Source: a virus
Virus record (IMG/VR): IMGVR_UViG_3300034682_000304
Span: 1 to 20,388 of that record
Strand: one strand, 5' to 3'
DNA: 20,388 nucleotides
Part shown: positions 11,793-16,346 of the stretch, piece after piece
How the letters are laid out: every line of letters starts with the position of its first letter
How positions within the stretch are numbered: position 1 is the first letter of the stretch
The notes under the pieces: model-generated
What the model was told of the DNA's origin: nothing
Seen by the model: the letters and a program-made list of their open reading frames with translations, nothing else
The model's database searches: none
Program-made: the position numbers and the translations under genes

Positions 11793-12139
11793 TGAATGAA
11801 TCCATTTCATTTACTCAGTGGAAGACCGGACATCGTCCTATCACCACGAATACAGTCACTTTGGCTTCAGGCCAAGGTGTGCTGCCAGAAAAAACGCCAT
11901 TAGGCCAAAACTCCGCTACTGGTGCTTACCATAAGTGGGCGCCGGCAGCTAACGATGGTACGCAAAAAGCTGTAGCTGTATTGATGGCTCAAGTTGATGC
12001 AACTACATCGGTTCAAGCCAATGTATGGGATGGCGGTTCATTCAACCCAGACATGGTTGCATGGCCTGTCGGTGCAACTGCTGCGCAAAAAGCTACAGCA
12101 TTTGTGGGTACTCCAATTCAGTTAAAAGGAGCTGAGTAA
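11792..12139 (+). CDS. Head decoration protein (gpD-like)
   Basis: A 115-residue protein, close to lambda gpD (110), which binds as trimers to the expanded capsid and stabilises it. The segments TPLGQNSATGAYHKWAPAAN (compare the TPLMLD...LVAWDG part of gpD), GTQKAVAVL, and WPVGATAAQKATAFVGTPI near the C terminus match the family ([20 protein letters not shown] in lambda). It sits between scaffold and major capsid genes as in lambda, with TAATG overlaps on both sides. Confidence 0.88.
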   Translation: MNESISFTQWKTGHRPITTNTVTLASGQGVLPEKTPLGQNSATGAYHKWAPAANDGTQKAVAVLMAQVDATTSVQANVWDGGSFNPDMVAWPVGATAAQKATAFVGTPIQLKGAE

Positions 12140-13185
12140 TGCCAGCAGCAATTTACACTTCAAAAGAGCTGATTGCAGCGCGTAAAAACAAACAGCGCGT
12201 AAGTTCGCTATTCCGTGCAATGTTCTTCAAAACAGTGGTCCCGTTCCCGACTAAAGAAATCTATCTGGATAAAGTGAATCAGAACATCCCGATGGCGGCT
12301 TTTGTGTCACCTATTGTTGAAGGCAAGGTGATGCGTCAGAACGGCTTCAAAACCCAGAAGATCACTCCGGCTTTGTTAAAGCCAAAGCATGAAGTTGACG
12401 TTGAAAATACTCAGCTGCGTTTAGCCGGAGAGTCTCTGGACACTCCGTTAACCCCAGAACAGCGTCGCGACGCAATCATCATGCAAAATTATGACGATGA
12501 AGAAGTAGCGATTAACCAGGCGCTGGAATTTATGGCGGTTGAGTGTGTGATGAACGGCGCTTACACCATCAAAGATGATACTGGTGCTGAATTGCTGCAG
12601 GTTGACTTTGAACGTAGTGCCAACAACAAGAAAGTGTTGCTGGGTGCTGAAAAATGGTCAGCCATTCTGTTGGCTGGTGGTGCAGAAGCCTATGACCCGT
12701 TTAAAGACATTGAAGATTTAGCCGACGAAATGACCAATGGTTGTGATGTTTTGATCCTCGATGGCACTGCCTGGTCACTGTTCCGTCAGTTCAAAACGGT
12801 GAAAGAAAAACTGGAAACCCGCCGTGGTTCTACTTCCACAATGGAAACAGCATTGAAAGACCTCGGCAAAGATGTGTCGTACAAAGGCAACATCGGCGAT
12901 GTTTCTATTGTCGTTTACCGCGGTCACTACAAAAACAAAGCGGGTCAAAAAGTTCGCTATATGCCAGATGGTTCGGTGCTGCTTGCGCACTCTGGTGCTG
13001 AAGGCGCTGAGTGTTATGGTCAGATCCCAGATGCAAAATTGCTGGCTGAAGGTTTAGCCAACCAACGTATGGCCTATAAACACTGGATCACTGAAGGTGA
13101 CCCATCTGTTGAATGGCAGCAAACACTGACGGCGCCTGCCGTAGCGTTAATGGATGCGGACGAATTTGCCGTTCTGATCGTTTAG
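12139..13185 (+). CDS. Major capsid protein (gpE-like)
   Basis: A 348-residue protein (lambda gpE has 341) that would form the icosahedral shell. Features typical of the lambda E family are the N-terminal helix region, TKEIYLDKVNQNIPMAAFVS, the PLTPEQRRDAIIMQNYDDEE region, and the C-terminal part with SGAEGAECYGQIPDAKL and KHWITEGDPSVEW before a final MDADEFAVL. Its position after gpD and before FI is the lambda order. There is no terminator behind it; only 16 bases separate it from the first possible start of the next gene. Confidence 0.93.
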   Translation: MPAAIYTSKELIAARKNKQRVSSLFRAMFFKTVVPFPTKEIYLDKVNQNIPMAAFVSPIVEGKVMRQNGFKTQKITPALLKPKHEVDVENTQLRLAGESLDTPLTPEQRRDAIIMQNYDDEEVAINQALEFMAVECVMNGAYTIKDDTGAELLQVDFERSANNKKVLLGAEKWSAILLAGGAEAYDPFKDIEDLADEMTNGCDVLILDGTAWSLFRQFKTVKEKLETRRGSTSTMETALKDLGKDVSYKGNIGDVSIVVYRGHYKNKAGQKVRYMPDGSVLLAHSGAEGAECYGQIPDAKLLAEGLANQRMAYKHWITEGDPSVEWQQTLTAPAVALMDADEFAVLIV

Positions 13186-13249
13186 TTTCCTTACTGTTCT
13201 AATGTTTAACCCATCACTGGCTGACCTCGGTCGGCCCTTGGAAAATCCT

Positions 13250-13810
13250 ATGAAAATTAGCAAAACAACTCCGTTAGAGGAATTGATCCCTTATTTCGCG
13301 GAGCTGGCATTGTCTCGTGGTTTAGATGAACAACCACCAACAGACAGGCAAGAACTTGTTGCCCGGATCAAAGAACTGGAAGCCTTGCCTGTAAAAAATG
13401 CCGAAGGTGATGCTGACGGTGACGGCTCAGAGTCTGGTACCGAAGGTGATGCTGACGGTGACGGCTCAGAGTCTGGTACCGAAGGTGATGCTGACGGTGA
13501 TGGCTCAGAGTCTGGTACCGAAGGTGATGCTGACGGTGATGGCTCAGAGTCTGGTACCGAAGGTGATGCTGACGGTGATGGCTCAGAGTCTGGTACCGAA
13601 GGTTATGCTGATGGTGACGGCTCAGAGTCTGGTACCGAAGGCGCTACAGTTGATAGCGACGTGAAGCTAGTTAACATTAAACCATTGTGTTCGATTCGTT
13701 GCAGCCATGGTGAGCAACGTTACGAAATTAATGGCAATAGCAACTCAGTCGCTGTGCCAGAGTCGCTGGCCAATGACCTGGTAGCTGGCAAATACGCTGT
13801 GTTGCTCTGA
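13250..13810 (+). CDS. FI-position head protein with six acidic tandem repeats
   Basis: A 186-residue protein (or 202 from ATG 13202). I prefer ATG 13250 because GGA lies seven bases upstream while 13202 has no ribosome site. The N-terminal domain (about 1-50, TPLEELIPYFAELALSRG) is helical. Residues 53-130 are six copies of the 13-residue unit GDADGDGSESGTE (the sixth has Tyr in place of the first Asp), very acidic and glycine-rich. The C-terminal domain (about 140-186) contains two Cys and a beta-rich pattern (QRYEINGNSNSVAVPE). The place between major capsid and connector is that of lambda FI, which aids terminase release and packaging, but sequence similarity to FI is not evident. Each repeat fits the 12-residue EF-hand loop pattern D-x-D-x-D-G-x5-E, although position 8 is Glu rather than hydrophobic. 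Confidence 0.65.
   Translation: MKISKTTPLEELIPYFAELALSRGLDEQPPTDRQELVARIKELEALPVKNAEGDADGDGSESGTEGDADGDGSESGTEGDADGDGSESGTEGDADGDGSESGTEGDADGDGSESGTEGYADGDGSESGTEGATVDSDVKLVNIKPLCSIRCSHGEQRYEINGNSNSVAVPESLANDLVAGKYAVLL
13406..13639 (+). repeat. Six tandem 39-bp coding repeats
   Basis: Six units of exactly 39 bp lie head to tail within the FI-position gene. Copies 1 and 2 are identical, copies 3, 4 and 5 are identical to each other and differ from 1 and 2 by one silent change (GAC to GAT), and copy 6 has a few changes, including Asp to Tyr. The near-identity points to recent expansion by slippage or unequal recombination. Because the unit is a multiple of three, copy number can change without breaking the frame. 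Confidence 0.95.
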
Positions 13811-15564: not shown

Positions 15565-15987
15565 ATGTCGCTAGGCAAATTTACGAAATACCGACTGAAA
15601 GTAGGGGAAACCTTTGTAGAAGTTGCAGACGTAATTGCAATGACGCCCATTATGCCAACTCGTGAGACAGAAGACGTTACACCGTTTGGCGGTGACGAAG
15701 ACAACGATTGGCGGGAGCACGAAGGTGGTTTGCGTGAGCCAGGTGAACAAGAACTTACGATTCGCTATTTAGATGCCGCTAACCCAGGTTTAGAGGCTTT
15801 AATTTCAGCATTTAACACAAACACCAAAGTTGAACAGCAGCTTTGCTATCCGCTGACGGCCAAACCAGGTCATCAGTACAAAGCCGTTGTGGTCAGTGTT
15901 AGTACTGAAATACCGATCGAGAAAAAGCTTCAGCGCAAAATCAAGCTGAAACTCTCCGGTAAAATTGAGGATATCACATGGGTTTAG
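15565..15987 (+). CDS. Major tail tube protein (gpV-like)
   Basis: A 140-residue tube subunit. The segments DVIAMTPIMPTRETEDVTPF and HEGGLREPGEQELTIRYLDA match the N-terminal domain of gpV-type tube proteins, and IPIEKKLQRKIKLKLSGKIE is the closing beta region. Unlike lambda gpV it stops there and has no C-terminal Ig-like domain. ATG 15565 follows a strong AAGGAG (15551-15556). The last 10 bases overlap gene G. Confidence 0.85.
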   Translation: MSLGKFTKYRLKVGETFVEVADVIAMTPIMPTRETEDVTPFGGDEDNDWREHEGGLREPGEQELTIRYLDAANPGLEALISAFNTNTKVEQQLCYPLTAKPGHQYKAVVVSVSTEIPIEKKLQRKIKLKLSGKIEDITWV

Positions 15988-16346
15988 CTCTGTATTTGAA
16001 CAAAAAAGAGGTGCCAGTGGGACCAAAGACCGTGCTGGTTTTTGAAATGGCTGCCTCAGACCGTGTTGCTGTCGTCGACACAGTGACTCAATTCTTTGAT
16101 TTACCCAAAGAAGAGTTCACACGCGGACACGAAATTACTATTACCGCGTTAGTTATCCAGCGCAGTGTTCGCAATGAAGATGGTGAGCTTACCTTTACCG
16201 AAGAACAGGTGCGGGATATTCCAAAATTATTTAGCAGAAAAGCTATGCAGCAGATTTTTGATGTTGCATGTGAGTTATCTGAACTGGAGTTCTTGCTGGG
16301 AAAGCCTCAAGCCGGCTCCACCTCAGAAACCAGCCAGACCGAGTAA
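15978..16346 (+). CDS. Tail assembly chaperone gpG-like
   Basis: A 122-residue acidic chaperone that would coat the tape measure protein during tail assembly. It contains an N-terminal beta part (ALYLNKKEVPVGPKTVLVFE) and a helical C-terminal part (RDIPKLFSRKAMQQIFDVAC, then ELSELEFLLGKP). The frameshift site GGGAAAG is at 16298-16304 in the codons for LGK, 14 codons before the stop. Most ribosomes would end at 16346 and give G alone, and a minority would shift and give GT. Confidence 0.82.
   Translation: MGLALYLNKKEVPVGPKTVLVFEMAASDRVAVVDTVTQFFDLPKEEFTRGHEITITALVIQRSVRNEDGELTFTEEQVRDIPKLFSRKAMQQIFDVACELSELEFLLGKPQAGSTSETSQTE
16298..16304 (+). other. Programmed -1 frameshift site (GGGAAAG)
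   Basis: The heptamer GGGAAAG lies in the zero frame as G GGA AAG, the X XXY YYZ arrangement, and is the same heptamer used by lambda gene G. After slipping, translation continues at GCC (16304) in the T frame with no stop until 16654. The only visible downstream structure is a weak pairing of AGCC (16303-16306) with GGCT (16313-16316). Confidence 0.9.

Follow-up and report, generated by a model that had tools for sequence, protein, structure and literature searches.

The window analysed here, a virus record of 20,388 bases carrying a lambda-type head module, holds a gene in which a run of short tandem units is spaced much like the calcium-binding loops of EF-hand proteins. The question raised by this locus is whether the array represents a set of metal sites or whether its role within the protein lies elsewhere.

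Genomic context and assignment of the FI-position gene

The array lies within a gene on the plus strand (13250..13810) which, from its open reading frame and the gene order, is predicted to encode a putative DNA-packaging chaperone of the lambda gpFI type of 186 amino acids. Its start was placed at the ATG at position 13250, the mechanical ORF beginning at 13202. The genes of the region are ordered as head maturation protease with a scaffold region (phrog_53), decoration protein (PF02924), major capsid protein of the gpE type (12139..13185, plus strand; PF03864, E 9.7e-49), the FI-position gene, an ORF in the FII position and a tail-completion protein (phrog_27). Lambda shows the same placement, with FI following E, and the FI position given to this gene by an earlier note made from the sequence of the window was confirmed, the gene standing directly after the major capsid ORF. 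The major capsid protein, which is 42–43% identical to those of lambda and N15, would be the expected binding partner of the FI-position protein.

No match to PF14000 or PHROG 92 (packaging chaperone FI) was obtained with the whole protein (E up to 1) or with its two ends (E up to 5); lambda FI, used as a positive control, matches PF14000 at 4.8e-59. The protein is therefore named FI-type by its position, layout and weak profile similarity, and not as a member of PF14000. This distant similarity was found by profile–profile alignment of both ends against an FI family composed of lambda, N15, phi80 and IMG/VR relatives, with a score of 22.2 for the N-terminal half (maximum of 100 column shuffles, 13.5) and of 17.0 for the C-terminal domain (maximum of 100 column shuffles, 13.9). 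The N-terminal half (residues 1–51; 13250..13402, plus strand; pN/pS 0–0.13) is predicted by AlphaFold2 to form two helices (residues 9–22 and 33–45, pLDDT 82–92), and the C-terminal domain (residues 135–186; 13652..13807, plus strand), a candidate capsid-binding domain, is predicted to be beta-rich, with strands and a helix. The protein thus shows a helical N-terminal half and a C-terminal domain joined by a linker, confidence in the C-terminal fold being moderate. When modelled alone with distant FI rows in the alignment, the C-terminal domain gave a full-length but weak match to the gpFI domain 2lsm (Foldseek E 3.1, TM 0.60/0.56; Z 4.0, rmsd 4.9, 54 aligned), which ranks below unrelated folds, among them GINS at Z 6.4.

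Protein searches of an annotated phage collection with the whole FI-position protein or either of its ends returned nothing significant, and a structural search with the full-length model, in which disorder dominates, gave no significant match. For the N-terminal half, a SAP domain (6h9u) came out best on re-examination, with a Z of 3.2 that is too weak to claim. Matches to PHROG 11232, 10432 and 18306 were confined to the repeat region and were discarded as compositional. The only match of the PDB sequence profile, a lysostaphin chain with repeats (6rk4), likewise involves the repeat region alone and looks compositional; although alike in this region, lysostaphin is an unrelated secreted enzyme.

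The tandem array and the linker

Tandem Repeats Finder reported a repeat at 13401–13641 with a period of 39, 6.2 copies, 98% matches and a score of 447, far above chance. In frame, this corresponds to six tandem units of 39 bp (13 residues) at 13406..13639 on the plus strand. Units 1–5 read DADGDGSESGTEG and have Glu at position 12 of the loop; unit 6 reads YADGDGSESGTEG, with Tyr at position 1. The earlier note had described six tandem in-frame units each carrying D-x-D-x-D-G; the six units stand, while the three Asp residues are present in five of them, unit 6 being the exception. It had also recorded Glu at position 12 and the lack of a hydrophobic residue at position 8, which agrees with units 1–5, and all six units have Glu at position 8 and Gly at position 13. 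The mean DNA identity between the copies is 96%, and with 98% matches at an in-frame period of 39 the array bears out the recent in-frame expansion proposed in that note. The number of units is that assembled in the contig. An error of assembly, which the note had named as a possible source of the repeats, is contradicted by the recurrence of the gene with 13-residue repeats in the sequenced isolate Rheinheimera sp. 1928-s and, independently, in four IMG/VR contigs.

The array is contained in an acidic linker of 83 amino acids (residues 52–134; 13403..13651, plus strand) with a net charge of −30. AlphaFold2 gave pLDDT values of approximately 36–49 across residues 52–136, which corresponds to predicted disorder, and the description of this part as a flexible, very acidic linker was upheld.

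Comparison with close relatives

The relatives used were four IMG/VR contigs (L002, L003, L004 and L005) and a prophage of Rheinheimera sp. 1928-s (L012). Their capsid proteins are 90–98% identical, and all carry an FI-position gene with the 13-residue periodicity. Across the Rheinheimera genus and family, only one prophage was found to possess both a close capsid gene and this FI-position gene. Two further candidates (L010 and L011) proved to be unrelated, their match falling within repetitive sequence rich in Asp and Gly. Among the relatives there is strong conservation at both ends of the protein, over the first 51 and the last 52 residues (pN/pS 0–0.16), and the copy number, which it had been proposed to compare among related phages, was found to vary: the linkers of the six homologues are 53, 83, 92, 92, 95 and 105 amino acids long, with three to seven full units.

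None of the 22 in-register units of L003, L004, L005 and L012 combines Asp at positions 1, 3 and 5 with an acidic residue at position 12, position 1 being Ala in 21 and Ser in one. The nearest relative, L002, is the only one to retain D1, D3, D5 and an acidic residue 12, in four of its seven units. Over the 29 units of all five relatives, Ala occupies position 1 in 22, and either Ala or Lys occupies position 12 in eight, while Gly4, Ser7 and Gly13 are invariant. Measured against the window unit, pN/pS of the units is 0.40–0.50 in L003, L004, L005 and L012, a relaxed constraint compared with the lower values of the flanking domains, and 0.18 in L002. Since the ligand positions vary and the units have these pN/pS values of 0.40–0.50, what appears from these sequences to be constrained is a small, polar and acidic composition rather than a set of metal ligands. 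As close relatives do not keep the ligands, the linker is most likely a plain tether of variable length. The Asp-rich units shared by the window and L002, with the lower pN/pS of 0.18, could reflect a role gained in that lineage. A role of the 39-bp unit at the DNA level was not supported, synonymous sites of the units differing by 22–44% from those of the relatives.

A distant capsid relative (L017:2537–2788) encodes a short FI-position protein in which ELITPxE occurs three times before the C-terminal domain. This repeat differs from that of the window, and thus the 13-residue unit has so far been seen only in the close group; that L017 has a short tandem repeat of its own suggests that repeats arise repeatedly in the FI-position gene.

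Proposed role of the linker

We consider it probable that the linker is an unstructured, acidic tether whose length can vary, situated within an FI-type DNA-packaging chaperone and extended by duplication in frame. Popovic et al. in 2012 reportedly identified the C-terminal domain of gpFI as the head-binding part, and the C-terminal domain of the window protein would be expected to bind the capsid lattice. In lambda, gpFI assists the docking of DNA-bound terminase onto the prohead and exerts this effect by way of the major head protein (PMC4856287; PMC7889075). The helical N-terminal half of the window protein would engage DNA or terminase, and the 83-residue chain of Gly, Ser, Asp and Glu would tether the two ends, its length setting their reach. 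The charge of the linker would keep the chain extended and off the DNA, or it may be a mere companion of disorder. Duplication of the 39-bp unit in frame would have enlarged the array, with selection acting on a small, polar, acidic and unstructured composition and not on particular residues, in which case D-x-D-x-D-G would be a by-product of an Asp/Gly-rich repeat rather than a conserved metal site. With near-identical ends joined by linkers of 53–105 residues, linker length in FI-type chaperones is a natural variable, and the length series of the relatives is ready material for asking whether the chaperone acts as a tether.

The main rival to a tether is a neutral expansion of the repeat without selection on length, in which replication slippage or recombination changes the number of units and any disordered linker works, its length and charge being free of selection. 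This is a possible, if less convincing, account, and it agrees with the variation in unit number and with copies that are near-identical within a phage (on average 96% in the window and 95% in L004 at the DNA level) and only 76% identical between the window and L004. However, all close relatives retain the composition of the linker, with hydrophobic residues nearly absent, pN/pS stays below 1, and acidity recurs in distant FI-type proteins. The two readings overlap, because a tether may itself tolerate a wide range of lengths.

The earlier note had also suggested a DNA-mimic linker acting in packaging. In the form considered here, the acidic chain, as a DNA mimic or electrostatic competitor, would bind terminase or other proteins with affinity for DNA and pass the DNA on as packaging proceeds. 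The net charge of the linker is in keeping with this, as is the finding that the linker is net negative in all 23 FI-type proteins sampled (median −0.21 per residue), but among the close relatives the charge per residue ranges between −0.21 and −0.36, and uncharged (GST)n replaces (DST)n in N15-like phages. Folded DNA mimics need a folded surface, and none is predicted here; with no fold and no fixed geometry of charges, a DNA-mimic linker is improbable.

Calcium binding

The EF-hand loop pattern used, which we take to be that of PROSITE PS00018, had no match in the six homologues. Given Glu at position 8 and Gly at position 13 in every unit of the window, none fits this pattern, and the helix-loop-helix flanks are absent, the units following head to tail in a stretch with no helix and predicted to be disordered. 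An EF-hand loop carries a hydrophobic residue at position 8 (PMC3123361). EF-hand loops were ruled out by pattern, by this context and by the relatives, and the calcium-bound, EF-hand-like loops which the earlier note had proposed are not borne out.

A broader form of the idea is that EF-hand-like or free D-x-D-x-D-G loops bind calcium, which would compact or stiffen the linker and so regulate packaging; we regard this as very unlikely. Free calcium in the bacterial cytosol is sub-micromolar, and a site with a Kd of tens of µM would be empty there. In its favor, D1, D3, D5, G6 and E12 of five units make up the generic EF-hand signature DXDXDGX5E, and acidic disordered chains, including short starmaker peptides, bound calcium at approximately 50–100 µM (PMC8391695). 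Against it, apart from the ligands missing in the relatives, the window linker has a charge-patterning kappa of approximately 0.06 (hydropathy 3.13), where the same study asks for kappa > 0.1 (PMC8391695), a rule which derives from few peptides and is not decisive. SM4, a peptide of regular Asp-Ser repeats, has an equal kappa, and no calcium binding to it could be fitted; the script used for kappa and hydropathy reproduces the table values published for SM1–SM4 (PMC8391695). A calcium site is unlikely in view of the low kappa and of the ligands missing from the relatives, and a conserved one is not supported by the sequences compared, while weak binding of cations by the linker is possible. 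A further and very unlikely variant is that the tether gained Asp 1, 3 and 5 in the lineage of the window and L002 and became responsive to divalent cations, Mg or Ca altering its reach and thereby setting the moment at which DNA bound by terminase passes to the prohead. An Asp/Gly-rich repeat can evidently imitate an EF-hand loop in one sequence, and a handful of relatives is enough to unmask it.

Other features of the window

The G-position ORF (15978–16346), upstream of the T-position ORF (PF06223), contains GGGAAAG close to its end (16298–16304), read in frame as G GGA AAG. This is the slippery sequence of lambda G/GT, and a programmed −1 frameshift in the G-position ORF is therefore likely. 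At the left end (1–75), elements of the form AACGGTTCC / GGAAC recur with a period of 22 bp upstream of an ORF (141–593) and of an IstB/DnaC-type helicase loader (535–1347), and are candidate iterons of a replication origin. A tyrosine integrase (PF00589; 1344–2570) directly follows the helicase loader, which makes a temperate lifestyle of the phage probable and agrees with its prophage relative in Rheinheimera.

Comparison with known systems

Five of the window units resemble EF-hand and other D-x-D-x-D-G calcium loops in the spacing of Asp and in Glu 12; the array differs from such loops in its Glu at position 8, in lacking flanking helices and in the absence of the ligands from relatives. 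With lambda gpFI (PF14000; C-terminal domain 2lsm), the window protein shares its position after the capsid gene, a helical N-terminal half, an acidic linker, a small C-terminal domain and a profile similarity of both ends above that of shuffles. The linker of lambda gpFI is, however, approximately 38 amino acids long and non-repetitive, compared with 83 amino acids and a repetitive sequence in the window, and the window protein has no direct match to PF14000 or PHROG 92.

The earlier note was right that lambda FI has no such array, yet acidic or Ser/Thr tripeptide arrays do occur in the linkers of N15, phi80 and other N15-like phages. N15 has (DST)5, phi80 has fewer copies and in the IMG/VR relatives (GST)n and (DST)n are mixed, n ranging between 1 and approximately 5; Asp and Gly interchange in these arrays. 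In a more distant phage, Serratia phage vB_SspM_BZS1 (L026:2543–2965), the FI-position protein has a (TD)n dipeptide run. N15 gp9, phi80 FI and their N15-like IMG/VR relatives are thus similar to the window protein in that their linker bears acidic or Ser/Thr repeats in tandem, in varying copy number, but their unit is of three residues (DST/GST) in a shorter linker, whereas that of the window is of 13. As these arrays occupy the same place, a repetitive, length-variable linker in FI-type proteins is not unique to the window.
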